Part shown: in pieces, positions 12,094 to 30,139 of the stretch
Numbering within the stretch: the stretch's first letter is position 1
How the letters are laid out: each line of letters opens with the position of its first letter
Source of the DNA: Ruminiclostridium sp.
Lineage (GTDB): Bacteria; Bacillota; Clostridia; Oscillospirales; Ruminococcaceae
Reading direction: 5' to 3'
DNA: 36,241 nt
Assembly: GCA_024682455.1 (NCBI GenBank)
Contig: JAIKZF010000052.1
Location: forward strand, 1-36,241
Made by a program: the position numbers and the translations under genes
Notes under the pieces: model-generated
The model's database searches: none
Told to the model about the DNA's origin: nothing
Seen by the model: the letters and a program-made list of their open reading frames with translations, nothing else

Positions 12094-12120
12094 GACTGCT
12101 CGTGACGGGCAGTCTTTTTT
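12094..12120 (+). terminator. Rho-independent terminator of the feoAB operon
   Basis: An 8-bp stem with one G-U pair (12094-12101 with 12107-12114) and a 5-base loop are followed by TTTTTT. Confidence 0.85.
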
Positions 12121-12187: not shown

Positions 12188-12216
12188 TTGACAAAACGGT
12201 CGTAAAATGCTATTAT
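12188..12216 (+). promoter_or_regulatory. Strong sigma-A promoter of the FHA/PP2C/kinase cluster
   Basis: TTGACA (12188-12193) and TATTAT (12211-12216) are 17 bases apart, in an AT-rich stretch just past the feoAB terminator. The predicted start near 12223 leaves a ~150-base leader before the first FHA gene. It is the only clear promoter seen before the nine-gene run, whose internal gaps are short. Confidence 0.82.
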
Positions 12217-12226
12217 AAGGTATAAC

Positions 12227-12245
12227 AATTGTGACGGAATTGTGA
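12227..12245 (+). promoter_or_regulatory. Direct repeats AATTGTGA, possible operator
   Basis: AATTGTGA occurs at 12227-12234 and 12238-12245, one helical turn apart (11 bases), just downstream of the predicted transcript start. Regulators often bind same-face repeats in this position. The rest of the leader (12246-12373) shows no recognised riboswitch. Confidence 0.4.
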
Positions 12246-12373
12246 AAACTCTGCTTTGCACGGAAAGCTTTATCGGGGGCTGAATTGCCTGCCTCTTTAA
12301 CGCTTTATTGCGGCAGAAATGTTTCGCCCGGCCGGCACTTTGAATAGAAACAGGAGCTCAGGAGGTTATTATT

Positions 12374-13072
12374 ATGGGCTATACGACTTGTCCCAACGGT
12401 CATCTTTACGATCCGGAACAGTATGCGAGCTGTCCGCATTGCAACGGGGGAAGCAATATGATCGACTTTACGGGAGGCGGCTATCCGCAGGGTACTATCG
12501 CTCCCGGAAGCTTTGGCGGTGACTATCCGCAGGGTACCGTAGCGCCGAACGGCTTCGGCGGAGGCGGTGTTCAGAACGAAAAGATAATGGGCACGCATGC
12601 CGACCCGTCCGCGGGCTTCAATCCCGACGAGGTCAACAAGACCGTTGCTCCGAGTGATTACAGCGGCGGTCCCTCAAAGACGATAGCCGTGTTCGAGGCC
12701 GAGCAGGGCTTCGTCCCCGTAGTCGGCTGGCTCGTCTGCACCGAGGGAAACAAGGAGGAGAAGGGCAAAAGCTTCAACCTCCTGTCCAAGAGAAACAAGA
12801 TAGGCAGAGACAGAGAGTCCGATGTCCGCATTACCGGCGACAACGCTATCTCGGGCTATAACGCGAGCATTGCCTTCGACGAGGAGGAGTGCTCCTTCAC
12901 GCTGATCCCCAGCGATACCGCGAACAACGTCCGCATCAACGGCAAGGCCGTATATGTCCCGACGACTATCGTGGCTTACGACGAGATACGCCTCGGAGTT
13001 ACCCACCTTGTCTTCGTTCCGTTCTGCAGCGAGCGTTTCTCGTGGGGCAAAAAGGCGGAGGATAAGGTATGA
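12374..13072 (+). CDS. Zinc-ribbon FHA-domain protein (possible GarA-like kinase substrate)
   Basis: The 232-residue cytoplasmic protein begins with a zinc-ribbon-like CPNGHLYDPEQYASCPHC (6-23), followed by two copies of a YPQGT(I/V)AP Gly-rich motif. Residues ~115-225 form an FHA domain (NKIGRDRESDVRI...NVRINGKAVYV), which reads phosphothreonine in partner proteins. GR is present, but the usual SxxH reads SGYN, so phosphopeptide binding may be altered. Threonines in KTVAP (T90) and KTIAVFE (T103) just before the domain are placed like the phospho-acceptors of GarA/OdhI-type proteins, by inference. An AGGAGG site precedes the ATG. It overlaps the PP2C gene by ATGA. Confidence 0.88.
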   Translation: MGYTTCPNGHLYDPEQYASCPHCNGGSNMIDFTGGGYPQGTIAPGSFGGDYPQGTVAPNGFGGGGVQNEKIMGTHADPSAGFNPDEVNKTVAPSDYSGGPSKTIAVFEAEQGFVPVVGWLVCTEGNKEEKGKSFNLLSKRNKIGRDRESDVRITGDNAISGYNASIAFDEEECSFTLIPSDTANNVRINGKAVYVPTTIVAYDEIRLGVTHLVFVPFCSERFSWGKKAEDKV

Positions 13073-13902
13073 ACCCTTATCCGAACAGCGGTACATACCC
13101 CGTTCCCGGAGAACAGGACATGATGCCGACGGTGGAGATCAGACCGTTCACCTACCAGATATCGAACCTGCAGGGTATCGGTACCTGTGAGAGGCAGGAG
13201 GATTCCTTCGGCTTCGTGAATGCGCTCGACGACGAGAAGATAAGCCGCCGGGGACTTCTCGCGGTGCTTGCCGACGGAATGGGAGGCATGAGCGGAGGTA
13301 AGCTTGCCAGCGAGACCACCGTTGCCACCATGCGCGGGGACTTCGAGGAATTCGATATGTCCGGGGATATACCCCGTCAGCTCTGCTCCGCCGCCGCAAA
13401 GGCGGACGACATCGTTTTCGGGCAGCTCGCGGGGAAGGGCGGAAGCACGCTCATTGCCTGCCTGTTCTATCGTGAAAAGCTTTATTTCGTCAGCGCGGGC
13501 GACAGCTTCCTCTACCTGATGAGAAACGGCAGCCTGTACCGTATCAACGCCGAGCATAACGTGCTCCACCGCAAGTTTGAGGACAGGATAGCCGACAAGG
13601 ATATATCCCTTCGCAGCATAACGAACGAGCGCGAGAACCGTGCCGTGACCAGGTACATAGGCTGCGGCAAGCTGCGGGATCCCGACAGGTTCGTGAGACC
13701 GCTCCCGCTGTATGTCGGCGATATAGTAATGCTGTGCTCCGACGGTGTGGCGAATGTCCTGCCGCCCGAGCGCATAGTCGAGGCTCTGGAGAGCCCGTCG
13801 GTCGATGAGATGTGCCGAATGATGAACGCGGAGATCTCCGACAATCCCACAGGTCAATACCGCGACAACTACACAGCTCTGCTAATCAGATGCGCGTACT
13901 GA
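13069..13902 (+). CDS. PP2C-family Ser/Thr protein phosphatase (first)
   Basis: The 277-residue cytoplasmic phosphatase of the PPM/PP2C class removes phosphate from Ser/Thr residues using bound Mn/Mg. Metal-site motifs are CERQEDSFG (~44-51), LADGMGGMSGG (~70-80), SAGDSFLYL, MLCSDGVANVL and RDNYTALL near the end. GDSR is altered to GDSF, a small departure. The start overlaps the FHA gene, so the two proteins are probably made in fixed proportion. It is the likely antagonist of the three kinases encoded downstream. No membrane segment is seen, so it acts from the cytoplasm. A second, diverged PP2C lies at 15637-16362. Confidence 0.92.
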   Translation: MNPYPNSGTYPVPGEQDMMPTVEIRPFTYQISNLQGIGTCERQEDSFGFVNALDDEKISRRGLLAVLADGMGGMSGGKLASETTVATMRGDFEEFDMSGDIPRQLCSAAAKADDIVFGQLAGKGGSTLIACLFYREKLYFVSAGDSFLYLMRNGSLYRINAEHNVLHRKFEDRIADKDISLRSITNERENRAVTRYIGCGKLRDPDRFVRPLPLYVGDIVMLCSDGVANVLPPERIVEALESPSVDEMCRMMNAEISDNPTGQYRDNYTALLIRCAY

Positions 13903-13983
13903 GCGCGGTCCGATAACCGGCTGCGGAACGTATGGACCGCACAGCCGGCGGAACGAATCAATTTGAAAGGAGTTGCACCCCGT

Positions 13984-14001
13984 ATGAGGGTGCGGATCTG
14001 A
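13984..14001 (+). other. Possible five-codon leader peptide before the protease gene
   Basis: The reading frame MRVRI-stop has its ATG 11 bases after an AAAGGAG site (13966-13972) and its TGA ends 2 bases before the ATG of the protease gene, which lacks a good site of its own. This arrangement would let ribosomes finishing the leader restart at 14004. Confidence 0.35.
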
Positions 14002-14003
14002 TT

Positions 14004-15629
14004 ATGAAAAAGAAAATTCTGGGCTTATTGCTCGCGCTTTCCATGGTCTTTTCGATAGCCGTGCTCACTCCCGCTGTTTCTGCGGCTGACGGAGGAATAA
14101 GCATCAACGACGTCCGTCACGGCGTTGCGGTCATAGAGTGCGGTCCCGCCAATGCGAGCACCGGCAGCTATGACCTCGCGGACCAGGTATTCCGCGGCTC
14201 CTGCTTCTTTGTTGGAGTACACGGCACAGACCCGCAGTATCTTGTAACCAACTATCACGTTATACAGTCCTTTGTCGAGAACGGCAGCGGCGAGCTTATG
14301 ACCGAGACTTTCATGGTGGACGGCACTGCTTATAAGTATGACTACCGCATGAAGATAAGGGTTTACTACTCGGCGAACGATTTTGAGGAGGCTTATCTTG
14401 TTGACAGCGATTCCGTAAAGGATATCGCCCTGCTCAAGATCGCCAATCCTACCAACAAGAGGGCTGCGCTGCACCTTGAGCCGCCCGTTGATTCGATGTC
14501 CTTCTCGGACGTATGGGTCGTTGGCTTCCCCGGGAATGCCGAGAACGTCATAGCAGGCTCGGTATCCTCTTACGGTGAGACTGACGCTGTCGGCAAGAAG
14601 GGCGTCATCAGCAAGATCTTCATCCAGCAGAGCACCGGTACGACCGAGATACAGACGGACTGCGAGATAAACGGCGGCAACTCCGGCGGCCCGATGGTAA
14701 ACGAAAAGGGCAAGGTAGTCGGCGTTGCTACATACACCGTATACACAGCCGAGGCGATCACGAATGAGCTCGGAGTTATCAAGGAGCAGAAGTACGCTAT
14801 CGGCTCCGATATGGTTGCGACTATTCTCACAAGAAACAACGTTAAGTATTCGACGGACGACTATTCCGGCGGTACCGGCTCCTTATCCGAGGGCGACGGC
14901 TCCGCGCCCGCTTCCGTTTCGGTAAACTTTGACGGCAACGGCGGCGTTCCCGCTCAGGCGAGCGCTCAGGTAGCGGCAGGCGGCTCCTACGGAAGCCTTC
15001 CTACCGCGACAAACGGCATTATGGAATTTGACGGCTGGTATACCGACCCCGCTGCGGGCGACCGTATCACAGCAAATTCCAACGCTCCGGGAAGCGGCTC
15101 CGTGACGCTCTACGCGCACTGGAAGATACCCGTATGGATATGGATAGTTGCCGTAGCTTTGGTGCTTATCATCGTAGCTGTGGTCATCATAGCGGTAGCC
15201 GGCTCGAAGAAGGGCAAGGGCGCAGCCGCTCAGACTCCCGCTCCGGCACCCGCACCCGCTCCGGCTCCCGTACAGCCCGTTTCTCCCACGATGCCCGCAC
15301 GTCCTCAGAGACGCGCTGTGATCAGATCCATGGCGGCTCAGCACAAGGGACAGAGCATTACCGTGACCGAACGTCCCGTTTCCCTCGGCAGAAGCGCCAA
15401 GGACTGCGCGATAGTTTATAACGGCGATACGGCGGGCGTAAGCTCGGTACACTGCTCGATATCCTATGACGGCGGCAGAAACGAGTTTATGGTGACCGAC
15501 GTATCCACCTACGGTACATTCATGCTTAACGGTCAGAAGCTCCCGAAGGGCGTTCCCACGAACGTAAAGCCCGGAACGAGCCTCTACCTCGGCGATAAGG
15601 GCAATGTGATAACTCTTTCTGTGGAGTAA
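14004..15629 (+). CDS. Secreted trypsin-like serine protease with TM segment and cytoplasmic FHA domain
   Basis: The 541-residue single-pass receptor-like protein opens with a signal peptide (MKKKILGLLLALSMVFSIAV, cleavage near VSAADG). An HtrA/trypsin-like protease domain (~35-275) has an intact triad: TNYHVI, DIALLKI and NGGNSGGPM. Next come a Listeria-Bacteroides (InlB B-type) repeat (VNFDGNGGVPAQ...FDGWYTDPAAG...VTLYAHW, ~306-372), a TM helix (WIWIVAVALVLIIVAVVIIA, ~378-400), a Pro-Ala linker and a C-terminal FHA domain (VSLGRSAKDCAI...SSVHCSI...STYGTF) in the cytoplasm. I start at 14004 because the signal peptide begins there; upstream in-frame codons have no ribosome site. Outside proteolysis joined to an inside phospho-reader suggests signal transfer across the membrane. 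Confidence 0.9.
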   Translation: MKKKILGLLLALSMVFSIAVLTPAVSAADGGISINDVRHGVAVIECGPANASTGSYDLADQVFRGSCFFVGVHGTDPQYLVTNYHVIQSFVENGSGELMTETFMVDGTAYKYDYRMKIRVYYSANDFEEAYLVDSDSVKDIALLKIANPTNKRAALHLEPPVDSMSFSDVWVVGFPGNAENVIAGSVSSYGETDAVGKKGVISKIFIQQSTGTTEIQTDCEINGGNSGGPMVNEKGKVVGVATYTVYTAEAITNELGVIKEQKYAIGSDMVATILTRNNVKYSTDDYSGGTGSLSEGDGSAPASVSVNFDGNGGVPAQASAQVAAGGSYGSLPTATNGIMEFDGWYTDPAAGDRITANSNAPGSGSVTLYAHWKIPVWIWIVAVALVLIIVAVVIIAVAGSKKGKGAAAQTPAPAPAPAPAPVQPVSPTMPARPQRRAVIRSMAAQHKGQSITVTERPVSLGRSAKDCAIVYNGDTAGVSSVHCSISYDGGRNEFMVTDVSTYGTFMLNGQKLPKGVPTNVKPGTSLYLGDKGNVITLSVE

Positions 15630-15636
15630 TAATTGA

Positions 15637-16362
15637 ATGAATATTGACTGCTATTCCTACACAAGCGCAGGCGGCAGAGAGGTCAATGAGGATAACGTCC
15701 GCATGGGAGAATTCCCGGGCGGGCGTATCCTTGCTCTTGCCGACGGGCTTGGAGGTCACGCCGACGGCGATATGGCGTCGCGCTGCGTGACGGAGACCAT
15801 AATGTCGGCGTCCGTGCCGGACAACGACGTAGAGATACCCTCCTGGCTGGTGGGTCGTGTGAACGCCGCGAACTCCGCGCTCATTGCGAGCTGCGAGAGA
15901 AGCGGCCGCAGTATGAGAAGCACCGCCGTGGTACTTGTGATATCCGGGAGGAACGCTTACTGGGTGCATACCGGCGATTCGCGGCTGTATTTCATACACC
16001 GCGGCGAGCTCGACTTCATAACGGAGGATCATTCGGTAGCGTTCAGGAAGTTCAAATCCGGCGAGATCTCAAGAGAAATGATAGGTATGGACCCCGATCA
16101 GCCCTGCCTTCTGCGCTCTCTCGGCAGCCCCGAGCGCTTCGAGCCCGAGGTGGGCTCGGCGTATGAGCCGCTGGAGCCTGGCGACGCGTTCCTGCTGTGC
16201 TCGGACGGTCTGTGGGAGTATGTCCTCGACGAGGAGATACTCTTAGACCTTTACAAGTCCTACAACGCGCGCGAATGGGCGAATTACCTGCTCCTGCGCG
16301 CAATGGAGCGCATCGGCGGGGATAACGATAATATATCGCTCATAACAGTAATGGTAAGTTAG
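15637..16362 (+). CDS. PP2C-family Ser/Thr protein phosphatase (second)
   Basis: The 241-residue cytoplasmic PP2C has the full metal-site set: REVNEDNVRM (~16), LADGLGGHADGD (~34), TGDSRLYFI (~110), LLCSDGLWEYV (~187) and GGDNDNISL near the end. Unlike the first PP2C it keeps GDSR. It lies 7 bases after the protease-FHA gene, with a GGAG site inside the end of that gene, so the two are cotranscribed and probably cotranslated. Two different phosphatases in one operon suggest separate targets, such as kinases versus FHA proteins. That is inference. Confidence 0.93.
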   Translation: MNIDCYSYTSAGGREVNEDNVRMGEFPGGRILALADGLGGHADGDMASRCVTETIMSASVPDNDVEIPSWLVGRVNAANSALIASCERSGRSMRSTAVVLVISGRNAYWVHTGDSRLYFIHRGELDFITEDHSVAFRKFKSGEISREMIGMDPDQPCLLRSLGSPERFEPEVGSAYEPLEPGDAFLLCSDGLWEYVLDEEILLDLYKSYNAREWANYLLLRAMERIGGDNDNISLITVMVS

Positions 16363-16386
16363 TACCTGAAGGAGAAGTTTCCGTTT

Positions 16387-18213
16387 ATGTTGAAGAAACT
16401 CTTGTTGTTCCTGACAGCCGCGGCGATCATGCTGCCGTTTGCGCACGCCTCCGCCGAGGATAAGAAGTATATGGAGACCGAGACGTATTACTGCAGCGGC
16501 AATAATGTGAACGTTATCGCGAAGCTGCCCGACGGCGCGGAATACGGCAGCAGCAACATCACCGCGTATCTTACGGCTCCCGGCAGCAACCAGATCTTCG
16601 AGGGGGAAAAGGCCGAACCTTTAAAGGTGTCTGCGAATGAGACTGTGGATTATATCCTGCTCGTGGAGTGCTCGGAAAAAATGGCGAAGTACAGGGAAGA
16701 TGTCGCCGATTTTGCCCGCAAGCTCATCAAGAACAGCGAGAACGCCGAGCTGACGCTTATGTGCTTCGGCGAGGATTTCAGCGTCGCGGCTTCCGGTCTT
16801 AAGAACGCCGACGATGCCGAGACGGCAGCTTCGGAACTCGTATATGACGACAAGTATTCCGATATATGCGGCGGCGTGACGTACGCTTTGAAGGAGGCGG
16901 CGAAAAACGCGTCCTCCGAACGTATGACGCAGCTCATAGTGCTGACCGCGGGAGTTGCGCGCGTCAGAGCCGGCAGCGACACGGAAGCGGTAAAGATCAA
17001 GACGGAAAGGGCTGATGAAGCGAAGAAAGCCATTGCAGCCTCGCCCGATGTTATCGTGCATACCGTAGGCGGCTTCGGCGGGGACTGGGGTTTAAACCCT
17101 ACGACCTACAAAAGCGTGAGCAGCGGCAGCGGTCTTGATATCGTGATCAATCAGAATGTCAACGTTAATTCCGCGGCGGCGAAAATCTGCGCGTACACGG
17201 ATTCGCTGTACAGATTTTCGTTTGCGTTCAACGAGCTGGCAGTCGGCGACGATGAAAGCTTCAATATGCGCATATATTACTGCCTGAACGGAGTAGGTCA
17301 GGCATCGGGGAATAATAATATCATCTGCAGCAATGATGAGCTGGAAAATATAAAGAACATCGACCTGCCCAGGTTCGATGACGGTTCCGATGAAACCGGC
17401 GTTGCTCTTGTTGATAACGGCGATCCGACGGACGCAGACGTTCCCGGCGGCAATCCCGATGACGGGGAAAATCCCGGCGATAATCCCGATGACGGGGAAA
17501 AGCCTGGAGACAATCCCGATGACGGCGAAAAGCCCGGAGACAATCCCGATGACGGCGAAAACCCCGGCGATGATCCCGGTGACGGTGAAAATCCCGGAGA
17601 AAACGCCGACGGCAGCGAAAACCCCGGTGACGGCGACAACCCCGACACCGACGATCCCAACGGCGGCGAGGACGGCAAGCCCTCCGAGGGCAGCGCGGCT
17701 TCCGGCAATGAGGGCGCCGGAAGCGAGACAACGACTGCACCCGCCGAGCCTCCGTTACTCAATATTATAATTATTACCGCGGCGATAGGCGGCGGAGTGA
17801 TAGTTCTGGCGATCATTATCGCGGTCATTATCGGAGCGGCAAGGAAAAAGAAACAAAGAAGCTTTCAGCCCACCGCGAACGGCTATCCGGCGGGAGCCGC
17901 GGCTCCGGTATATAACAGCGCTCCGAGGCCTGTGCGTATACAGTTCATGTCAGGGAGACTGCCGGACGCGTCCGTAATGCTCGGTGAGCAGATAATCATA
18001 GGCAGCGGCAGGAACTGCGACGTCATCTGCCGGGACGCTACCGTGACCTCACACAATGTGCGGCTGTCAATGGTACAGGGTGAGATATACATAGAGGATT
18101 TGAACGCCCAGCCGAACACCATGCTCGGAGGCGTGAGACTGTCTCAGCCGGCGGCTCTCAGGAGCGGCGACGAGATAACAATGGGACGTGTAAGGTTCCG
18201 TATTTATTTCTGA
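16387..18213 (+). CDS. Secreted VWA-like protein with TM segment and cytoplasmic FHA domain
   Basis: The 608-residue protein starts with a signal peptide (MLKKLLLFLTAAAIMLPFAHASA). Residues ~85-290 look like a von Willebrand A fold, but the metal motif DxSxS reads ECSEK (~98), so metal-dependent binding may be lost. An acidic linker of ten-residue repeats (~356-425) precedes a TM helix (IIIITAAIGGGVIVLAIIIAV, ~459-482) with a basic stop (ARKKKQR). The C-terminal FHA-like domain (~518-608; IIIGSGRNCDVICRD...SHNVRLSM) has SHNV where SRxH is usual. The layout parallels the protease-FHA protein: an outside binding module and an inside reader. GAAGGAG precedes the ATG by 11 bases. Confidence 0.85.
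   Translation: MLKKLLLFLTAAAIMLPFAHASAEDKKYMETETYYCSGNNVNVIAKLPDGAEYGSSNITAYLTAPGSNQIFEGEKAEPLKVSANETVDYILLVECSEKMAKYREDVADFARKLIKNSENAELTLMCFGEDFSVAASGLKNADDAETAASELVYDDKYSDICGGVTYALKEAAKNASSERMTQLIVLTAGVARVRAGSDTEAVKIKTERADEAKKAIAASPDVIVHTVGGFGGDWGLNPTTYKSVSSGSGLDIVINQNVNVNSAAAKICAYTDSLYRFSFAFNELAVGDDESFNMRIYYCLNGVGQASGNNNIICSNDELENIKNIDLPRFDDGSDETGVALVDNGDPTDADVPGGNPDDGENPGDNPDDGEKPGDNPDDGEKPGDNPDDGENPGDDPGDGENPGENADGSENPGDGDNPDTDDPNGGEDGKPSEGSAASGNEGAGSETTTAPAEPPLLNIIIITAAIGGGVIVLAIIIAVIIGAARKKKQRSFQPTANGYPAGAAAPVYNSAPRPVRIQFMSGRLPDASVMLGEQIIIGSGRNCDVICRDATVTSHNVRLSMVQGEIYIEDLNAQPNTMLGGVRLSQPAALRSGDEITMGRVRFRIYF
17452..17661 (+). repeat. In-frame 30-bp tandem repeats (acidic stalk)
   Basis: About seven units of 30 bases encode NPDDGE(N/K)PGD-type decapeptides, degenerating toward the 3' end. 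They form a flexible acidic stalk between the VWA-like region and the TM helix and could vary in number by slippage. Confidence 0.85.
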
Positions 18214-18274
18214 CCGGAACGCTGCCGCCGTTCGTAGTGAATGAGCGGCGCGCCCGTAAAAGGAGCGAGACCCA

Positions 18275-18676
18275 ATGCAATGCGTAAAATGCGGCAGTCC
18301 GCTGAGACCGGGGGCTATGTTCTGCGGTATGTGCGGAGCGCCGTGTCAGCAGGGCGCAGCCCGGATGCCGGGTCATGCGCTGACGGCGGACGGGGGAATG
18401 TACGCCGGAGCACGGATACCTCTCGATAAGCCCGTGGTCATGGGCTGTGACCCTTCGAGATGCACTCTGGTGCTGCCGCCGAACACTCCGGGCGTAAGCC
18501 GGCTGCACTGTACCGTAAAATGTCAGGACGGCGTTGTGTACATCATGGACCACAATTCCACCTACGGTACATACTGGAGCAGCGGTACAAGGCTGCCCGC
18601 GAATACCTGGGTAAGAGTTTCGGACTCTTTCTGGCTCGGCGATCCGGGTATCAGATATACGGTGATAACTGTGTGA
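18275..18676 (+). CDS. Small zinc-ribbon FHA-domain protein
   Basis: The 133-residue cytoplasmic protein has an N-terminal four-Cys zinc ribbon (CVKCG...CGMCG, 3-22) and a C-terminal FHA domain (~45-133). The phospho-binding SRLH and the STYGTY loop are kept, but the first-loop GR reads GC (VVMGCDPSRCTLVLP). It has no TM segment. The same ribbon type heads the three kinases downstream, so it may share a docking partner with them. AAAGGAGCGAG lies just before the ATG. The 61-base gap behind the VWA gene shows no promoter or terminator. Confidence 0.88.
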   Translation: MQCVKCGSPLRPGAMFCGMCGAPCQQGAARMPGHALTADGGMYAGARIPLDKPVVMGCDPSRCTLVLPPNTPGVSRLHCTVKCQDGVVYIMDHNSTYGTYWSSGTRLPANTWVRVSDSFWLGDPGIRYTVITV

Positions 18677-18695
18677 ATAAAAAGGAGATCATTCT

Positions 18696-21278
18696 ATGAA
18701 AACCTGCTTTAACTGTTTTCTTGAATACGAGGACAATTATTCCATGTGCCCGTACTGCGGCTATGATCCCGCAGCGGATACCACAAAATTCCATAACGCT
18801 CTGCCGCACGGCACTCCTCTCGGCGGAAAATACATAATCGGGCGCGTGCTCGGACAGGGCGGCTTCGGCATAACCTATCTCGCGAAGGACTTCAATTCCG
18901 GCGAGCTGGTCGCGATCAAGGAGTATTTCCCCGATTCAATGGCGACCCGCGGCGAGAAGAACCGCATAATACCGTTCACGGGCACGAAGGGCGAGAACTT
19001 TGAGTACGGCAAGGCTTCCTTTATGGAGGAGGCAAAGACACTTGCGCGTTTCAACTCGATACCCAACATCGTGAGCGTTTATTCGTATTTTGAGGAAAAC
19101 TCCACCGCCTATTTCGCAATGGAATATCTGAGGGGCAGGAACCTGAAGGAATATATTTCCGAGAACGGCGGCAGACTGTCGTGGCAGCAGGCGGAGAGGG
19201 TACTGCTTCCCATACTCGACGCGCTGGAGGCTGTACATTCTCAGGGCATGGTGCACCGTGACATCAAGCCGGACAATATCCTCATAACCGCGGACGGAAC
19301 TCCGAAGCTGCTCGATTTCGGCTCGGCGAGATTCAGCCTCGGCGAGAAGAGCAGCAACCTCAGCGTAGTCATAACCCAGGGCTTTGCGCCGTATGAGCAG
19401 TATAAGCGCCACGGCAAGCAGGGACCCTACACCGATATTTACGCTATCGCGGCGACGATGTACTATTCGGTGACCGGAAAGGTTCCGCCCGAGTCCATAG
19501 ACCGCAGAGACGATGACAGCATACTGATGCCCAATGCTCTCGGAGTCGCTGTGACTCCCGAAAAGGAGAACGCGCTGATGAAGGCGCTTGAGGTCAATCC
19601 CGACGACAGATACCGCACAGTAGCGGCTTTCCGCGCCGACCTTATGGGCGGGCAGGCCGGAGGCTCGCAGCAGGCGAACTTTGTTGTTCCGGGAGTCGTT
19701 CCCAATGTTCAGCCTGTGAACCCGTCGGGATACGTTCAGCCCGTGCAGCCGTCGGGATACGTTCAGCCCGTGCAGCCGTCGAGGTACGTTCAGCCTGTAC
19801 AGCCGTCGGGATATGTTCAGCCCGTACAGCCGTCGGTGTACGTTCAGCCCGTACAGCCGTCGGGATATGCTCAGCCCGTGCAGCCGTCGGGATATGCTCA
19901 GCCTGTACAGCCGTCGGGATACGTTCAGCCTGTGCCCCCGTCGGGGTACGTTCAGCCTCACGGACAGCAGCAGGTGCCTCCGTCGGGATATTATCCTCAG
20001 CCGGGACAGCAGCCGCCCGTACAGCCGTCCGTTCCCGTGCAGCCGTCCGTTCCCGTACAACCGTCCGTTCCTGTGCAGCCGGTGCCTCCCGTGCAGTCCG
20101 AGAAACCTGCCGGGGAGAAGAAAAAAAGCCCCGCGAAGATCATCGTGCCTATACTGCTTTCCGCTGCCGTTGTCGGTATAGTGGTGGCTGTGATATTTAT
20201 GATGAACGGCGGCGGCAGCGATATACAGACCCACGACGGCGCAGGTACTACTACGACGACCGCGGCGGCAGCGGATACCGCAGCCGCGCAGACCACGAGC
20301 GGCGGGCTTATGACCGAGGACAACAATACCGTGCCTGTTCTCGTTACGGAGACCCAGCCCGTGACCGAGCCTCCGGCGAAGGAGACCGATCCCAAGGAGA
20401 GCACCTCCAAGTCGCGCCGCTCTACAACCATAAAAACGAGACCTCCGGAGAGCGATCCCTCAGAGGACGAAACCACCACTACTACAACTACTACCACGCC
20501 GAAGGCGGAGACTCCCGCGCCTGTCGTTGTTGTGACGACAACAACTACCACTACGACTACAACGACTACCGCGAAGCCGAAGCCTGTGGTAACGCCCGAG
20601 TCTACTACGACTGCGAAGCCCAAGCCCGAACCCGAGACCAAGGTCGAGTTCGAGTATGAAAAGAGCACGAGCGGCGTTACGCTTACCAAGTATACCGGCT
20701 CAGGCGGGAAGGTCGAGATACCCGATAAGATAAACGGTAAGACTGTCGTGGCATTAGGCAAGAATCTCTTCTTCCGCAATGAAAAGATCACATCGGTCAC
20801 GATACCCACGGGTGTCAAGACTATCGGTGAAGAGGCTTTCTCAAGCTGCACAAATCTGAAGACCGTTAAAATGGGCAACAATGTCACTACGCTCGGAAAC
20901 GGCTGCTTCCGCAGCTGCCGGTCGCTTTCGTCGATCAATCTTTCGACCTCGCTGACCGAGCTGCCGATGAACTGTTTCAGAGACTGCCACAGTCTCACAA
21001 GTATCACGCTCCCGAACAGGATCACCTTGCTGGGCGGATATGCTTTTGGCTCATGCAGAGCGCTCGAAAGCATTGTGATACCCGCCGCGGTGAAAAAGAT
21101 CGAGGGCTGGTGCTTCGATGCCTGCTCCGGTCTGACGACCGTGACGATAAAGGGCAGGGACACCGAACTGATCTACGGCTGCTTCAACGGCTGCGGCTAC
21201 GCTACATTCTATGTGCCGAAAAATTCCAAGCCGGCCAGTCATTTGAATGAATACGGCTACCGGTGCGTTGAGAGCTGA
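18696..21278 (+). CDS. Hanks-type Ser/Thr kinase with zinc ribbon, TM and extracellular BspA-type LRR domain
   Basis: The 860-residue kinase has a zinc ribbon (CFNCF...CPYCG, 4-22) and a kinase domain (~38-315) with GQGGFG (55), VAIKEYF, HRDIKPDN (~188), DFGSA and FAPYEQY, all needed for activity. Next come nine PSGYVQPVQ repeats, VQPSVP repeats, a TM helix (IIVPILLSAAVVGIVVAVIF, ~482-502), a Thr/Pro-rich stalk (~517-648) likely outside, and a Cys-containing LRR_5 domain (~650-860; ITSVTIPTGVKTIGEEAFSS-type repeats). Ser/Thr kinases with outside sensor domains such as PknB/PrkC respond to wall fragments. This LRR could bind a surface or host protein, but the ligand is unknown. AAAGGAG precedes the ATG. 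Confidence 0.93.
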   Translation: MKTCFNCFLEYEDNYSMCPYCGYDPAADTTKFHNALPHGTPLGGKYIIGRVLGQGGFGITYLAKDFNSGELVAIKEYFPDSMATRGEKNRIIPFTGTKGENFEYGKASFMEEAKTLARFNSIPNIVSVYSYFEENSTAYFAMEYLRGRNLKEYISENGGRLSWQQAERVLLPILDALEAVHSQGMVHRDIKPDNILITADGTPKLLDFGSARFSLGEKSSNLSVVITQGFAPYEQYKRHGKQGPYTDIYAIAATMYYSVTGKVPPESIDRRDDDSILMPNALGVAVTPEKENALMKALEVNPDDRYRTVAAFRADLMGGQAGGSQQANFVVPGVVPNVQPVNPSGYVQPVQPSGYVQPVQPSRYVQPVQPSGYVQPVQPSVYVQPVQPSGYAQPVQPSGYAQPVQPSGYVQPVPPSGYVQPHGQQQVPPSGYYPQPGQQPPVQPSVPVQPSVPVQPSVPVQPVPPVQSEKPAGEKKKSPAKIIVPILLSAAVVGIVVAVIFMMNGGGSDIQTHDGAGTTTTTAAAADTAAAQTTSGGLMTEDNNTVPVLVTETQPVTEPPAKETDPKESTSKSRRSTTIKTRPPESDPSEDETTTTTTTTTPKAETPAPVVVVTTTTTTTTTTTTAKPKPVVTPESTTTAKPKPEPETKVEFEYEKSTSGVTLTKYTGSGGKVEIPDKINGKTVVALGKNLFFRNEKITSVTIPTGVKTIGEEAFSSCTNLKTVKMGNNVTTLGNGCFRSCRSLSSINLSTSLTELPMNCFRDCHSLTSITLPNRITLLGGYAFGSCRALESIVIPAAVKKIEGWCFDACSGLTTVTIKGRDTELIYGCFNGCGYATFYVPKNSKPASHLNEYGYRCVES
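19722..19964 (+). repeat. 27-bp in-frame tandem repeats in the first kinase
   Basis: Nine contiguous 27-base units encode PSGYVQPVQ with small changes (PSR, PSV, YAQ, QPVP). They form a Pro/Gln/Tyr linker between the kinase domain and the TM helix. There are no spacers, so this is not CRISPR. Confidence 0.9.
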
Positions 21279-21316
21279 CAGGACAACGTGAAATAAACTC
21301 CCAAGGAGGGCTGCCG

Positions 21317-22453
21317 ATGGCACTATGCTATAACTGCTTCAGCGAGTATGCCGATAACGTTCCGGTATGCCCGTACTGCGGCTATTCGGCAGCTTCCGAC
21401 GCTAACCGTTACCGCGGAGTCCTGCCGTGCGGCTCCGTCCTCGGCGGGAGATACATTGTCGGACGTGTGCTGGGAAAGGGCGGCTTCGGAGTGACCTATA
21501 TCGCTCTCGATCACAGCACGAAAAAGCTTGTCGCGATCAAGGAATACTTTCCCGAGGCTTTCGCCGGGCGAGGCGAGCACGGCACCGTGCAGCCCTGCCC
21601 GGGCGAAGAGGGCTCGTACTTTGAATACGGCAAGAACAAGTTCATGGACGAGGCAAAGGCTCTGGGGCGCTTCATCAACAATCCGAACATTGTCAGCGTC
21701 TACACCTACTTCGAGGAAAACAATACCGCCTACTATGCCATGGAATACCTGACCGGCTGCACTCTGAAAGAGTATATCTCCACCCACAGCGGAAGGCTCT
21801 TATGGAACGAGGCGGAACGGATACTTCTTCCCGTGATGAACGCGCTCTATGATATGCATTCCGTGGGAATGATACACCGCGATATAAAGCCCGACAACAT
21901 AATGATGACTGTGAGCGGAGTCCCGAAGCTGCTCGATTTCGGCTCCGCGAGATACAGCCTCGGTCAGAAGAGCAGGAACCTCAGTATTCTGGTGACCCGG
22001 GGCTTTGCTCCCTATGAGCAGTATTCGAGCCACAGTAAGCAGGGTCCTTTCACCGATGTCTACGGAGTGGCGGCGACATTCTACTATACCGTTACCGGCA
22101 AGGTCCCTCCCGACGCTCTCGAACGCAAGGACCATGATACTCTTGTCATGCCGAGCGTGTACGGAGTCGCTGTTTCGATCGAGAAGGAGAACGCGCTGTG
22201 TCATGCCCTGGCGATAAACGCCGCCGACAGGTATCAGACGCTCTCCGAATTCTGGAGCGACCTGTTCCTCGGGCAGCCCCAGAATATCGTCGTGCCGCCC
22301 GTTGTCATACCGGTCGATCCGCCTGTGCAGCCGCCTGTTCCGGCTCCTGCTCCCAGGAAAGAAAGAAATACATTACTGCTGACTGTCGGCGTTCTGAGCG
22401 CGGTAGCCCTTGCTTTTCTCATTTTCGTTATCATACTGCTGTGCCTCAGATAA
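21317..22453 (+). CDS. Tail-anchored Hanks-type Ser/Thr kinase with zinc ribbon
   Basis: The 378-residue paralogue of the preceding kinase has a zinc ribbon (CYNCF...CPYCG, 4-22) and kinase domain (~38-312) with GKGGFG, VAIKEYF, HRDIKPDN (~190), DFGSA and FAPYEQY intact. A short Pro-rich linker (PPVQPPVPAPAP) and a C-terminal TM helix (TLLLTVGVLSAVALAFLIFVI) end the chain, leaving no outside domain. It could act as a relay or partner for the two longer kinases rather than as a sensor. AAGGAGG precedes the ATG. It lies 38 bases after the LRR kinase gene and is followed by a terminator-like hairpin. Confidence 0.93.
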   Translation: MALCYNCFSEYADNVPVCPYCGYSAASDANRYRGVLPCGSVLGGRYIVGRVLGKGGFGVTYIALDHSTKKLVAIKEYFPEAFAGRGEHGTVQPCPGEEGSYFEYGKNKFMDEAKALGRFINNPNIVSVYTYFEENNTAYYAMEYLTGCTLKEYISTHSGRLLWNEAERILLPVMNALYDMHSVGMIHRDIKPDNIMMTVSGVPKLLDFGSARYSLGQKSRNLSILVTRGFAPYEQYSSHSKQGPFTDVYGVAATFYYTVTGKVPPDALERKDHDTLVMPSVYGVAVSIEKENALCHALAINAADRYQTLSEFWSDLFLGQPQNIVVPPVVIPVDPPVQPPVPAPAPRKERNTLLLTVGVLSAVALAFLIFVIILLCLR

Positions 22454-22496
22454 CGTTATGACGATGCGAAGAAAACCTCGTGAAGCGCACATAAAG

Positions 22497-22530
22497 GAAG
22501 CCTCCATACGGCAAAGGCTTCTGTTTTTTT
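22497..22530 (+). terminator. Rho-independent terminator between the second and third kinase genes
   Basis: A 7-bp stem (GAAGCCT 22497-22503 with AGGCTTC 22515-22521) and an 11-base loop are followed by TGTTTTTTT. It lies inside the 108-base gap. No clear promoter follows before the third kinase gene, so it may only reduce read-through. Confidence 0.7.
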
Positions 22531-22561
22531 ATATTTGCAGTAAACCTGTCGGAGGTCCCGA

Positions 22562-24844
22562 ATGTTCTGCTATAACTGCTTCAATACGGTACAAATGACC
22601 GGTATCTGCCCGTGCTGCGGCTTTGATCCTTCCCACGCGGAGGAAATGTATCCGAATGCTCTCCCTTACGGCACGCCCGTCGGAGGAAGATATATCACGG
22701 GGCGCGTGCTTGGCAAGGGCGGCTTCGGCATGACCTATAAGGCCTATGAACCCGGGCGCGGCAGATTGGTGACGATAAAGGAATACTATCCCGAGGGGAT
22801 AGCCTATCGTGCCGACAAAATACATATCCTGCCATATCCCGGCGCAAAGACCGAGCATTTCAAGTACGGAATAAGAGCCTTTCTTGACGAGGCAAGAGCT
22901 TTGGCAAGCTTCAACAGCTATTCAAATATAGTAAGCGTTCATGCCTACTGCGAGGAAAACGGCACCGCGTATTTCGCCATGGAATACCTGAACGGCGTCA
23001 ATCTGAAGGAGCTTATCGAGAGGATAGGCAGACCGCTCAGCTGGAGTGAGGCCATGTTTTTCCTCATTCCGGTCATTAACGTGCTTTCCGCCGTTCATGC
23101 CGCGGGTATGATACACCGCGATATAAAGCCGGACAACATCATGGTGACCGCTGACAGCGGCGCGAAGCTGATCGACTTCGGTTCCGCGAAGATGAGCTTC
23201 GGCGAGATGAGCCACAGCCTCAAGATAGTACTGACTCCGGGCTTCGCGCCGAAGGAACAGTATTCCAGCACAGAGCCGCAGGGCGCGTTCACCGATGTCT
23301 ACTCTATGGCTGCTACCATATACTATGCGGTAACGGGAAAAGTGCCGCAGGACTCGGTCGACCGCAGAGAGAATGATGAGCTCATACCGCCGCGCGCGTT
23401 TGTCACGGATATGCCTCCGGCGGCTCAGGATGTGCTGCTGAAAGCATTGGCGGTCTCTGCCGGAATGAGATATCAGAGTATGGAGGAATTCGGCACAGCG
23501 CTCCGCGAGACCGCGGGAATGCCGTACGGACACAGCGGCGACTATATCGTTTCATGGCTGCGTTCTGTGACTGAAAACAATAAGGAGCCTCTCGTTCCTG
23601 CGGAAGAAAAGCCTCCCGTTGACGAGGATAACGAGCCCGGCGAAAAAGAAGATGAAGGATCGGAAAAGCCTGACGAAAAACAGACAGACAAGCAGGAGCT
23701 CAGGCAGCCGGAGCGCGAAAGAGTTTCGTGGGTCGTTCCGACGGTAATAGTACTGTGCTCGGCAGCGGCTGTTTTCTTGATAATAAGTATCATTATGATG
23801 ACGAACAAGTCCTCCGTCTCGTTTGTTGAGAAAGATCCTCGAATGACGGAAGAGGCTATGACCGTTAATGCCTCCGTAACCGAAGCGGAAGCGGGTATCT
23901 TCGCTTTTTCGGCTGAGCCGGCGACGAGCACGCTCGTGACCGGTATGGACGAGTACACGGACGACGATCCCCGGGAGAGCGGACTCGGCACTGTCAGCAT
24001 CGTGACCGGGAATGAGACTCCGGAACAGGTCAACGATATGAGCTATACGGATACCCATGGCGCAAGGGGTAAATATACCGGCGAGCTTATGGGTGGCAGA
24101 CCGCACGGAAAGGGAGTGTTTGTTTACAGCGAGGACGGCGGTACCGCGGTATATGAGGGCGACTGGGTGAACGGTATAAGGAGCGGCACGGGAGAAAAGA
24201 CCTGGACTTCCGACGAGGGCAGCACGGGAAGCATAGAGTTTTATTTATACAGGGGCGAATTTGCCAACGACGCTGAAAACGGCAAGGGAAAATATACCTG
24301 GAAACGCAAAAGCGGAAATACCGAGGTCTATGAGGGCGAGGTCAGTGACGGCAGGATAGACGGCAGCGGTACATATACATGGGATATCGCGCTCGGGAAT
24401 TTTTATTTCGCACAGTATGTCGGTGAGTTTACCGACGGTCATATTACCGGCAGAGCGGTAAAGAACTGGAAGGGAAGAGACGGCCTTGAGGTCGTGGAGG
24501 ACGGCGTTTTCACCGACAATATCCTCTCCGGCATAGGAAAAAAGACCTGGAGATATCCCGACGGAGAAGAGGACGTATACGAGGGAGATTTCGTCAAGGG
24601 CACCCGTACAGGCAGCGGAAAACTGACAAAAAACGGACCCGACGGAAAGAAAGAGGTCTACGAGGGCGGCTTCAAGGATAATAAAAAGCATGGCAAGGGT
24701 ACGGAGACCATATATAATACCGACGGCGTCATAGAGGAGTATTCCGGCAAATACAACAGCGACGAACGCAGCGGGATCTTTACCGTGACCATAACAATGG
24801 CGGACGGTACAAAGGAGGTCTCGGAGATAAATTACGAGATATGA
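22562..24844 (+). CDS. Hanks-type Ser/Thr kinase with zinc ribbon, TM and C-terminal MORN repeats
   Basis: The 760-residue third kinase paralogue has a zinc ribbon (CYNCF...CPCCG, 3-20) and kinase domain (~38-310) with GKGGFG, VTIKEYY, HRDIKPDN (~188), DFGSAK and FAPKEQY; the catalytic residues are kept. An acidic linker and a TM helix (VVPTVIVLCSAAAVFLIISI, ~390-412) lead to ~750 bases coding MORN repeats (residues ~500-746; GKGVFVYSEDGG...YEGDWVNG-type units, with GKYTGELMGGRPHGKG first). MORN repeats usually lie inside cells and bind lipid or protein, so their predicted outside position is unusual. CGGAGG precedes the ATG. It is the last gene of the cluster. Confidence 0.92.
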   Translation: MFCYNCFNTVQMTGICPCCGFDPSHAEEMYPNALPYGTPVGGRYITGRVLGKGGFGMTYKAYEPGRGRLVTIKEYYPEGIAYRADKIHILPYPGAKTEHFKYGIRAFLDEARALASFNSYSNIVSVHAYCEENGTAYFAMEYLNGVNLKELIERIGRPLSWSEAMFFLIPVINVLSAVHAAGMIHRDIKPDNIMVTADSGAKLIDFGSAKMSFGEMSHSLKIVLTPGFAPKEQYSSTEPQGAFTDVYSMAATIYYAVTGKVPQDSVDRRENDELIPPRAFVTDMPPAAQDVLLKALAVSAGMRYQSMEEFGTALRETAGMPYGHSGDYIVSWLRSVTENNKEPLVPAEEKPPVDEDNEPGEKEDEGSEKPDEKQTDKQELRQPERERVSWVVPTVIVLCSAAAVFLIISIIMMTNKSSVSFVEKDPRMTEEAMTVNASVTEAEAGIFAFSAEPATSTLVTGMDEYTDDDPRESGLGTVSIVTGNETPEQVNDMSYTDTHGARGKYTGELMGGRPHGKGVFVYSEDGGTAVYEGDWVNGIRSGTGEKTWTSDEGSTGSIEFYLYRGEFANDAENGKGKYTWKRKSGNTEVYEGEVSDGRIDGSGTYTWDIALGNFYFAQYVGEFTDGHITGRAVKNWKGRDGLEVVEDGVFTDNILSGIGKKTWRYPDGEEDVYEGDFVKGTRTGSGKLTKNGPDGKKEVYEGGFKDNKKHGKGTETIYNTDGVIEEYSGKYNSDERSGIFTVTITMADGTKEVSEINYEI

Positions 24845-24866: not shown

Positions 24867-24897
24867 ACTGCCCCTTTCGGATAGTGAAAGGGGCAGT
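24867..24897. terminator. Bidirectional terminator hairpin, left copy at repeat copy B
   Basis: A 12-bp perfect stem (24867-24878 with 24886-24897) and a 7-base loop. The same 31-base sequence with one mismatch recurs at 25069-25099, across the repeat element. Confidence 0.75.
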
Positions 24898-25067
24898 GAG
24901 AGTGTCAAAGAAGCCGCTTACGCTCGAGTGCCTCCGGCGGCCATCCCTTTTGAAAAAAGGGCTGGACCCTAAAACAAACCGCTTCGCCTTGCAGCGGGGG
25001 GAGGTAGTGCGCCTTTTGATATTAAAAGAAACAGAAATAACCAAAAACTGGACTTTTTTGACAAACT
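24898..25067 (-). repeat. Interspersed intergenic repeat, copy B (MITE-like)
   Basis: This is the inverse copy of the repeat at 200-430, ~170 bases, without the nested 62-base insert. It lies between the third kinase gene and the convergent AlkD-like gene, flanked on both sides by the same terminator hairpin. Its ends read GAGAGTGTCAAAGAA and, on the other strand, AGTTTGTCAAAAAA, an imperfect inverted repeat. A 61-codon open frame inside it has no ribosome site and is not called. Confidence 0.8.
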
Positions 25068-25100
25068 AACTGCCCCTTTAGGATAGTGAAAGGGGCAGTT
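25068..25100. terminator. Bidirectional terminator hairpin, right copy at repeat copy B
   Basis: A 12-bp stem (25068-25079 with 25089-25100) is followed by ATTTCTT, 10 bases from the stop codon of the leftward AlkD-like gene. It matches 24867-24897 except for one base. Confidence 0.75.
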
Positions 25101-25110
25101 ATTTCTTATA

Positions 25111-28930: not shown

Positions 28931-30139
28931 TCACACTACGGTGATGACATCTTTCAGCACATAGCCGAACATCGGAGCCGAGGTCTTTTCGTTCTCAATG
29001 TAGCCGTTCCTCAGATCGTAGGTGTTGTTCGGGTCGAACGGGTCGACGCCGATGTAATCGCCTCTGAACACATCGTTCTTTCCCGCCTTGAACTCGTCTA
29101 TGAGCCGCTGTACGGCGTCCTCGCTGCCCTCGGCGGCGATGATCGAGTTGAGTTCGAGCATTTCTACCCAGCCCTTGTCAAAGCCCGCGCCTATGTCATT
29201 GCCGTGGACATTTCCGCTGATGCGGTCTTCGATGCGCTCATTCGCGAGCACAGCCTCGCAGGCGCCGAGAATGTACGGCTCCCAGTTGATGCGCGAGCTT
29301 ATCAGCGAGGTCGTCGGCGCGACATCTATCATGCTCTGGTTGTAGCCTATGTGGTATACGTTCTTTTTCCCGTAAACATCCTCACACGCGACCGCGGGGC
29401 CGGTGGTGTCGGAATGCTGCGAGATTATTACGCAGCCGCGCTCTATCAGCTCGTCGGCGCATTTCTTTTCGATCGTGTAGTTTGACCATGTGTTTGTATA
29501 TTTGACTTCCATCGTCGCCTCGGGCACCTCCGACCGCACACCGAGGAAGAAAGCCGTATAACCGGAGATCACCTCGGAGTAGGGGTAAGCCGCGACATAG
29601 CCTATGACCGCCTGCTTCGGGGTTATGATGCCGTTGGTTATCATTTCCTTAAGCTTCATTCCCGCGATCACTCCGGCGATGTATCTGCCCTGATAGATCT
29701 CCCCCATGAAGGTGTGGTAGTTGCTGTATACGGGGTCGTCGTTAGCGTCGTAGCAGGTCGCCTGGCAGAACTGTATCTCCGGGTGCTCGGCCGCCGCCTT
29801 CTTCGCGGCGTCGCCGTAGCCGAAGCTGGTGGTGAAGATGAGGTCGCAGCCCTTGTCTATCAGCGAGGCGACCGCGTTCTTTCCGCCCGTGGAGTCAGGG
29901 GTATTGCTCATAACGACCGTGGTGACCTTGTCGCCGAGCTTTTTCTCGACAGCCTTCTGCGCCTTTATGAAGTTCGCGGTATACGGGGTGCTCTCGTCGC
30001 CGTCATAAACAAAGCCTACGGTTATGGACTCGCGCGAGCTTTCCATATTCAGCTTTACAAAGTGGATTATCACGAAAAGCGATATCATCAGCAGCGATGT
30101 GACTGCGGCGGTAAGGTACATCTTTTTCATATCGTTCAT
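28931..30139 (-). CDS. Membrane-anchored BMP/PnrA-type substrate-binding protein
   Basis: The 402-residue protein matches the basic membrane protein (PnrA/Med) family of nucleoside-binding proteins: VGFVYDGDESTPYTANFIKA, CDLIFTTSFGYGDAA, GRYIAGVIAG, VIGYVAAYPYSEVISGYTAFFLG and ISQHSDTTGPA. Instead of a lipobox cysteine it has an N-terminal TM anchor (MYLTAAVTSLLMISLFVIIHFV, ~7-28), so it is tethered outside the cell as a bitopic protein. No nucleoside ABC permease or ATPase gene is adjacent. Instead its ATG overlaps the stop of the HD-GYP receptor gene (ATGA), which suggests it presents ligand to that receptor rather than to a transporter. Ligand specificity is inferred only. Confidence 0.88.
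   Translation of the reverse strand: MNDMKKMYLTAAVTSLLMISLFVIIHFVKLNMESSRESITVGFVYDGDESTPYTANFIKAQKAVEKKLGDKVTTVVMSNTPDSTGGKNAVASLIDKGCDLIFTTSFGYGDAAKKAAAEHPEIQFCQATCYDANDDPVYSNYHTFMGEIYQGRYIAGVIAGMKLKEMITNGIITPKQAVIGYVAAYPYSEVISGYTAFFLGVRSEVPEATMEVKYTNTWSNYTIEKKCADELIERGCVIISQHSDTTGPAVACEDVYGKKNVYHIGYNQSMIDVAPTTSLISSRINWEPYILGACEAVLANERIEDRISGNVHGNDIGAGFDKGWVEMLELNSIIAAEGSEDAVQRLIDEFKAGKNDVFRGDYIGVDPFDPNNTYDLRNGYIENEKTSAPMFGYVLKDVITVV

Follow-up and report, generated by a model that had tools for sequence, protein, structure and literature searches.

A Nine-Gene FHA–PP2C–Protease–Kinase Cluster of Ruminiclostridium as a Candidate Transmembrane Phospho-Signaling System

Ser/Thr protein kinases are common in bacteria, and the inputs, substrates, and outputs of most of them are obscure. 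A cluster of nine genes in a Ruminiclostridium species raises the question of whether all of these components may be encoded together as a single system. The cluster occupies positions 12374 to 24844 of a 36,241-nucleotide stretch (GenBank assembly GCA_024682455.1, contig JAIKZF010000052.1), the whole of which is hereafter called the window, from a genome of 1.94 Mb in 109 contigs that is 86% complete. All nine genes lie on the plus strand, with housekeeping genes on either side, and encode in order a zinc ribbon–FHA protein (g1, FHA1), a PP2C phosphatase (g2, PP2C2), a protease–FHA protein (g3), a second PP2C (g4, PP2C4), a VWA–FHA protein (g5), another zinc ribbon–FHA protein (g6), and three Ser/Thr kinases (g7 to g9). 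An earlier note on this DNA had listed nine codirectional open reading frames (ORFs) encoding four FHA proteins, two PP2Cs, and three kinases; every ORF is present at its place and strand, and Pfam supports these assignments, the VWA match of g5 being sub-threshold. We estimate a probability of roughly 0.6 that the nine genes form one mobile transmembrane Ser/Thr-phosphorylation system, in which the kinases would sense the outside, FHA1 would act as a hub switch, the protease–FHA and VWA–FHA proteins would be the outputs, and the PP2Cs would reset the system. Writers, erasers, a reader hub, and candidate outputs travel together here, and the hub offers a single conserved phosphosite candidate, which makes the whole path testable.

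The Gene Set Recurs in Related Genomes

Loci were found with a profile of the FHA1 family alone, and their neighborhoods were then fetched and annotated, ORFs with a profile match being given priority over longer antisense ORFs. FHA1 is present in 14 of 71 genomes of the same genus, in 28 of 295 of the same order (four of them also in the genus list; one second, weak match, G715:C95 at 2e-17, was dropped), and in 17 of 398 of the same phylum; these 17 have E values of 1.3e-40 or better, against a background of FHA domains that begins at 8e-12. At 1e-8 the phylum search matched 34 of the 398 genomes, of which 17 matched no better than 8e-12 and were excluded as weak matches to ordinary FHA domains; L083, among the 17 kept, was dropped because FHA1 was not called there at 1e-20. 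The 53 FHA1 loci counted comprise 42 window-type loci, including four of type VII secretion system (T7SS) or pilus type (L077, L170, L190, and L191), and 11 loci of a second type, type B, which were left out of the window-type counts.

On the same strand and within 10 kb, PP2C2 accompanies FHA1 in 40 of the 42 window-type loci, a kinase in 37, PP2C4 in 32, a protease–FHA gene in 32, and a VWA gene in 7. Among the 25 loci flanked by 5 kb or more in both directions, referred to here as complete, PP2C2 and a kinase are present in all 25, another FHA protein in 23, PP2C4 in 21, a protease–FHA gene in 20 (18 trypsin-type and 2 only PrsW-like), and a VWA gene in 6; once the four T7SS- or pilus-type orders are excluded, protease–FHA occurs in 20 of 21. 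Kinase, PP2C, and FHA matches are absent from two rough controls: three loci where the protease match lacks FHA (L032 to L034) and, in close relatives, six loci that surround the flanking genes. The earlier note had let its single-system proposal stand or fall with co-conservation in related genomes, and co-conservation is what we found: FHA1-anchored loci recur with PP2Cs, a kinase, and protease–FHA. By this comparative evidence, the reading of the nine genes as a single system is well supported. Paralogous signaling genes might instead accumulate in a loose neighborhood without forming one circuit, as the varying kinase number and gene order and the inconstancy of g6, VWA, and the MORN and LRR parts would allow. 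We consider this very improbable, given that every complete locus found through FHA1 alone also has PP2C2 and a kinase, despite the strong divergence of FHA1, and that similar codirectional sets occur in other phyla.

FHA1 and a Candidate Phospho-Switch

FHA1 (g1; 12374 to 13072, plus strand), the proposed phospho-switch hub and the marker of the family, consists of a zinc ribbon, a Thr-rich linker, and a Pfam-matched FHA domain. In an alignment of 97 distinct FHA1 proteins of all types together, type B and alphaproteobacterial members included and that of Azospirillum left out, a Thr N-terminal to the FHA domain is present in 92, although the linker is otherwise variable. Column conservation places this candidate phosphosite at T103 of g1 (codon 12680 to 12682, plus strand), 42 residues before the FHA Arg and with V at +3. 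At +3, 74 of the 97 proteins have V, L, I, or Y; the Thr column itself holds E or D in three type B members. The phosphate-binding residues of the FHA domain are retained almost without exception (Arg 97/97, Ser 96/97). In g1, T103 is the last of four repeats of the form T-[IV]-A-[PV] (T41, T55, T90, and T103), as read from the sequence.

The closest solved structures to g1, by sequence and by fold, are GarA and OdhI, in which the FHA domain binds intramolecularly. Like these actinobacterial proteins, g1 has an FHA fold with Arg and Ser and a conserved Thr N-terminal to it, a residue that Ser/Thr kinases phosphorylate in GarA/OdhI (PMC8546545). Unlike the proteins described there, g1 has an additional zinc ribbon and is clustered with two PP2Cs, membrane kinases, and a protease, and a 2-oxoglutarate dehydrogenase gene was not seen among the scanned window genes. 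The conserved Thr suggests, by analogy, a GarA/OdhI-like switch in FHA1, in which T103 would be a kinase site read by the FHA domain. No conserved Thr is visible in the protease–FHA linker in a 10-row alignment.

Kinases with Exchangeable Ectodomains

The kinases g7 (18696 to 21278), g8 (21317 to 22453), and g9 (22562 to 24844), all on the plus strand, begin with a zinc ribbon followed by a Ser/Thr kinase domain. In g7 and g9 a transmembrane (TM) segment leads to an ectodomain, which is of the BspA-type LRR family (Pfam LRR_5) in g7 and consists of MORN repeats in g9; g8 ends in a C-terminal TM segment, its ectodomain being absent. The zinc ribbon had been described as common to the kinases and two FHA proteins. 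This is borne out for g6, which shares the CxxC...CxxC pattern of the kinases, but not for g1, whose ribbon (C6/H10/C20/C23) is of another type.

Catalytic residues are conserved across the window-type kinases: the VAIK Lys in 105 of 110, the HRD Asp in 107 of 110, and the DFG Asp in 108 of 110. A TM segment follows the kinase domain in 91 of 109, and 80 of 109 have an outside part of at least 60 residues (length 74 to 1162, median 381). A Pfam scan of 77 of these 80 ectodomains (two from the window and one duplicate were left out) matched 62 families in all, among them LRR_5 (12 ectodomains), PASTA (6), DUF5050 (6), MORN (5), solute-binding proteins (4), and pectate-lyase-like adhesins (3). 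Judged from these comparisons, the kinase ectodomains are exchangeable. The cluster differs from the PASTA kinases PrkC/Stk1 with their phosphatases PrpC/Stp1 in scoring under the NCBIfam equivalog cut-offs, since the best window kinase reaches 164.5 bits (cut-off 450) and the best window PP2C 151.1 bits (cut-off 230).

Canonical kinases have a Lys two residues after the HRD Asp and a Thr in the P+1 loop. The Lys is replaced by S, A, T, C, or N in 100 of 108 window-type kinases, and in each of these 100 the P+1-loop Thr position is occupied by K or R; the eight that keep the Lys, including g7, g8, and g9, retain T or S there. The paired swap looks like a relocated catalytic lysine. Elsewhere in the window genome (G000:C5 5350 to 7542 and C39 34787 to 37069) lie an extra zinc-ribbon kinase with an LRR ectodomain, apart from the cluster, and a separate kinase–PP2C pair.

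Phosphatases and Membrane-Anchored FHA Proteins

Both phosphatases, PP2C2 (g2; 13069 to 13902) and PP2C4 (g4; 15637 to 16362), are on the plus strand, match the PP2C family in Pfam, and keep their metal-site residues. Across window-type loci, PP2C2 retains all seven positions checked in 68 of 68 proteins, and the residues checked in PP2C4 are kept in 54 to 56 of 56.

The protease–FHA protein g3 (13932 to 15629, plus strand) is composed of a signal peptide, a trypsin/HtrA-like protease, a Flg_new repeat, a TM segment, and a cytoplasmic FHA domain; Trypsin_2, Flg_new, and FHA are matched in Pfam, and the protease His, Asp, and Ser are present. Its signal peptide begins at a later Met, so the ORF start is probably placed about 25 codons too early. 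The catalytic residues are kept in most homologs from window-type loci (His 55/57, Asp 54/57, Ser 55/57). Among 55 protease–FHA proteins, an N-terminal hydrophobic stretch occurs in 47, a TM segment separates the protease from FHA in 53, and the FHA Arg is kept in 50; in 52 an excess of K/R on the FHA side supports an outside protease and an inside FHA domain. Locus L028 (9393 to 10685) encodes a multi-TM protein with an EEPAK motif, which we take to be PrsW-like, fused to FHA, and similar proteins occur in L101, L109, L115, L168, and L176, as judged with a profile built from the single L028 sequence. The EEPAK–FHA protein replaces or accompanies trypsin–FHA and may be another protease fold in the same slot.

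The VWA–FHA protein g5 (16387 to 18213, plus strand) has a signal peptide, a VWA fold with a degenerate metal-ion-dependent adhesion site (MIDAS; ExSxK), a TM segment, and an FHA domain without the canonical Arg. Its Pfam VWA_2 score of 22.6 bits falls below the 27-bit cut-off, and the predicted structure of the ectodomain is a VWA fold that matches VWA domains of solved structures. A TM segment is present in 18 of 19 VWA–FHA proteins, window included. The earlier description of g3 and g5 as receptors with outside modules agrees with their layout of signal peptide, TM segment, and FHA domain, but is weakened for g5 by its degenerate MIDAS and lost Arg. The remaining FHA gene, g6 (18275 to 18676, plus strand), encodes a zinc ribbon and an FHA domain that, as read from its sequence, has also lost the canonical Arg. 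Because of these losses, g1 and g3 are the likely phospho-readers in the window genome.

A Proposed Inside-Out Circuit

In the proposed mechanism, g7 and g9 would sense the outside through their exchangeable ectodomains, g8 having none, and the kinases would phosphorylate cytoplasmic threonines. The main substrate would be T103 (T-x-x-V/L/I) in the linker before the FHA domain of the hub, and its phosphorylation would toggle FHA1 between self-binding and partner binding, as in GarA/OdhI. Membrane proteins would dock on the phosphorylated sites through their cytoplasmic FHA tails, with the g3 protease–TM–FHA protein and, where intact, the VWA–TM–FHA protein (g5) as outputs; cytoplasmic phosphorylation might in this way cluster or gate the outside protease and adhesion-type domain, and g2 and g4 would reset the system. 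If this is correct, gating of a surface protease from the inside would be an unusual control of surface proteolysis, and the exchangeable ectodomains would amount to a library of natural kinase inputs.

A number of observations weigh against this mechanism. We infer the substrate, FHA binding, direction of signal flow, and output from the anatomy of the proteins. The AlphaFold model of g1 shows no docking of the T103 linker on its own FHA domain, the linker being disordered (pLDDT below 50 at residues 100 to 106), and FHA1 orthologs are only 30 to 37% identical to g1. Two of the four window FHA domains, those of g5 and g6, lack the canonical Arg, as do 6 of 19 VWA–FHA proteins (Arg kept in 13), and g5 has the sole broken MIDAS among 20 VWA proteins. 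The VWA gene is accessory, at 6 of 25 complete loci, and protease–FHA is missing from 5 of 25 (L077, L170, L190, L191, and L071); in L028 a protease homolog lacks His and Ser. The architecture of g6 occurs in no other annotated locus row, though no search was aimed at g6. Finally, the N-terminal CxxC...CxxC pattern is missing from 15 of 108 kinases, and the Azospirillum kinases described below have no zinc ribbon. The single closed write–erase–read circuit of the earlier note is therefore upheld in part: gene co-occurrence and conserved catalytic residues favor it, but the lost Arg residues of g5 and g6, the degenerate MIDAS, and the accessory status of VWA do not.

Sister Versions of the Core

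In G014 (same genus; locus L170) and G680 (L190), the order PP2C4>PP2C2>FHA1>kinase>kinase, without a protease gene, follows WXG100 genes, and G014 also has FtsK/SpoIIIE beside the core. These are apparently type VII secretion loci with their own kinases, phosphatases, and FHA hub. L191 has the same gene order, and the core follows a DUF6382–FHA gene in G432 and adjoins one in L077, where it is also beside a pseudopilin-like gene (read from sequence). The claim that secretion-machine genes are absent holds for this cluster, since no secretion genes were found among its nine genes, but it does not extend to the sister core that adjoins a type VII secretion locus in another genome from this genus.

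These arrangements would be expected if the module regulated a machine encoded elsewhere, such as a T7SS, a pilus, or another surface complex, with the protease and VWA proteins as mere accessories. We find this unlikely: the window genome, at 86% completeness, has no WXG100 match, 17 of 21 FHA1-bearing genomes tested likewise have none at E 0.001, and the four T7SS- or pilus-type rows are confined to one group of the PP2C2 tree, with a further row, L185, beside them. WXG100 was matched in G014, G050, G403, and G734 (the last below the cut-off), adjoining the FHA1 locus only in G014, and in 1 of 11 genomes without FHA1. A type VII secretion link was rejected for the window genome, in which there are no linked WXG100, FtsK, or EssC genes.

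Type B and an alphaproteobacterial type each form one PP2C2-tree group. The 11 type B loci (L072 to L075, L078 to L082, L187, and L189) carry FHA1, PP2C2, and a second PP2C that is extended far beyond its domain at the C terminus (by TPR in the two proteins scanned), together with a DnaJ gene in the two loci scanned and a protein of about 880 residues with Hsp70/actin-like motifs, read from the consensus of eight loci. Five type B loci encode a 722-residue protein (71 to 97% identical to the first), for which the one scanned gave no Pfam match and no convincing solved relative was found; profile searches of three type B families against solved structures returned nothing useful. With regard to a possible contractile-injection link of type B, L074 carries a Phage_GPD-type, baseplate-hub-like gene, and a sheath-family match is present in 5 of 11 type B genomes and in none of the other 6, counted genome-wide and not by proximity to the locus.

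Because these sister versions join the same core to other machinery, FHA1, PP2C2, PP2C4, and a zinc-ribbon kinase may constitute a portable phospho-control cassette used in several phyla by varied surface machines (T7SS, pilus-like, and Hsp70/DnaJ-type). Its self-standing form, as in the window, would then exert inside-out control of a surface protease through the protease FHA tail, with kinase ectodomains swapped to change the input. We offer this wider reading tentatively, at somewhat less than even odds. In L217, a Leisingera caerulea plasmid (12638 to 20607), two dynamin-family genes and a hypothetical gene before them come after the genes for a kinase, FHA1, and PP2C2, and are possibly another output of the core.

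Probable Horizontal Spread and the Defense Alternative

Related sets extend well beyond the order. When named genomes were scanned with a PP2C2 profile, the best 80 of a larger list included such sets, some of them incomplete, in Ruminococcus, Lachnospiraceae, Butyrivibrio sp. MB2005, Oscillibacter valericigenes, Fredinandcohnia quinoae, and Desulfosporosinus acididurans and in records of Synergistota, Nitrospirae, and Acidobacteria. On plasmid AZO_p4 of Azospirillum lipoferum 4B, one row encodes VWA–TM–FHA, FHA1, PP2C2, PP2C4, protease–TM–FHA, an FHA–kinase, and a kinase, and the row is flanked upstream by a site-specific integrase and downstream by transposases; the record labels the parts one by one and gives no system name. 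The frame used here for this FHA1 starts before its annotated start. One FHA1 protein matched 19 of 72,556 plasmid records, the 19 belonging to four alphaproteobacterial genera. In a PP2C2 tree of 92 proteins, members from the same genus are scattered over several branches, many of them well supported, as expected of horizontal transfer.

Four genomes of the same genus (G007, G039, G048, and G502; 80 to 95% complete) have no FHA1 match and keep the flanking AlkD gene (73 to 88% identity) and FeoB (77 to 91%), so the cluster is accessory. In G502, a single contig carries feoB and alkD with about 7 kb separating them; none of the intervening genes matches the cluster, and several resemble the housekeeping genes upstream in the window. 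We read the cluster, on this comparative evidence, as a horizontally spread module.

This patchy distribution, with the absence from four close relatives, would also suit an anti-phage or toxin–antitoxin-like kinase–phosphatase island of the kinase-kinase-phosphatase (KKP) or TerY-P kind, in which triggered kinases poison the cell and PP2Cs restrain them. KKP modules are capable of such defense (PMC11341870), and in PADLOC the kinases match families such as mad6 and PD-T4-6, PP2C4 has a hit to PDC-M21C (6e-11), and the protease part of g3 has hits to the models RT-Protease_XI (6.5e-14) and LmuA (3e-7). The kinase and protease matches, however, look like general fold matches, each kinase matching about 34 families, and we rejected the defense reading on this ground of generic PADLOC matches. 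Pfam finds no nuclease, helicase, or restriction gene in the cluster; one FHA1 protein has no match among 50,697 phage records, and no FHA1 match was confirmed in viral contigs. The large exchangeable ectodomains, secreted protease, and VWA domain point outward rather than to intracellular poisoning, and we judge a defense island improbable. Like the KKP sets of PMC11341870, the cluster has two or more kinases and a PP2C, and some KKP kinases carry FHA; unlike those three-gene prophage sets, it has membrane-bound kinases with zinc ribbons, a separate FHA hub, and a protease. The search criterion given there, a PP2C followed by two kinase genes of 900 to 1300 bp, does not describe the window, with three kinase genes of 1.1 to 2.6 kb, FHA genes between them and the PP2Cs, and housekeeping flanks.

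Comparison with Known Systems

The cluster resembles other FHA–kinase–PP2C systems and meets the full definition of none of those compared; no description of the gene set was found in the literature searched, which was open access, subscription papers lying outside it. New in this analysis are the near-invariant FHA1 Thr, the exchangeable kinase ectodomains, and the core beside a T7SS locus in relatives. The PpkA–PppA–Fha pathway of type VI secretion combines, as the cluster does, a membrane kinase with an outside sensor, a PP2C, and an FHA protein; to our knowledge, neither a protease–FHA protein nor an FHA1-like linker switch is part of it. Type VI structural genes have no Pfam match in the cluster or the scanned flanks, and the window genome has one phage-sheath-family match elsewhere (C96).

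TerY-type VWA proteins are soluble, whereas the VWA of the cluster has a signal peptide, a TM segment, and a cytoplasmic FHA domain. As in the TerY-P triad (PMC4978471), a VWA protein (g5), a kinase (g7 to g9), and a PP2C (g2/g4) are encoded together, and some TerY-P examples given there come with WxG and FtsK genes; the cluster adds an FHA hub and a protease and has no helicase, nuclease, or McrB/McrC-type gene among its nine. The sole DNA-related flanking gene encodes the AlkD-type repair enzyme, which lies on the other strand and is kept by relatives without the cluster. The archaellum network of ArnA, ArnB, ArnC, ArnD, and PP2A, as described in PMC6509490, likewise places FHA and VWA proteins under Ser/Thr kinases and a phosphatase; the g5 model weakly matches an ArnB paralog and the ArnAB complex (TM-score 0.34 to 0.36 on the target), and the g1 model matches ArnA at rank 50. 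The cluster differs in being bacterial, in using PP2C, in having a membrane protease, and in a predicted outside VWA domain joined by a TM segment to its own FHA. The MoxR, GAP1-N2, and effector genes of MoxR–vWA ternary conflict systems (PMC7159879) were not seen in the cluster.

Flanks and Transcription Signals

Upstream, the cluster is flanked by FeoAB and downstream by genes for the AlkD-type DNA-alkylation-repair enzyme and a radical-SAM protein, both on the opposite strand. Intergenic distances within it are −4 to 108 bases, and the spacers before g6 (61 bases) and g9 (108 bases) could harbor a second promoter. A terminator-like hairpin detected by scanning (12094 to 12114, plus strand) separates feoB from the cluster and is followed by a TG-extended promoter-like site, TTGACA-17-TATTAT (12188 to 12216, plus strand). 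The strong promoter that had been proposed 5′ of the cluster does correspond to this top-scoring site, an 11/12 consensus match, but the region has 18 such sites (8.2 ± 3.2 in shuffles), and this is consensus evidence, not functional evidence. A perfect 12-bp inverted repeat 3′ of g9 (24867 to 24897), terminator-like on the minus strand, and a second hairpin (25064 to 25104) have similar stems (ACTGCCCCTTT...) and separate g9 from the alkD-type gene that converges on it; transcription from one side could end at either hairpin. No RNA elements were found at Rfam gathering scores. Foreign base composition was rejected, the G+C content of the cluster being 0.561 (flanks 0.565 and 0.560), with a slightly lower value at third codon positions (0.682 versus 0.748). 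Farther downstream, on the minus strand (30136 to 33678), the window encodes an 1180-residue protein with N-terminal membrane-like stretches, a two-component-regulator propeller, Y_Y_Y, and HD_5, adjoining a PnrA-like binding protein.

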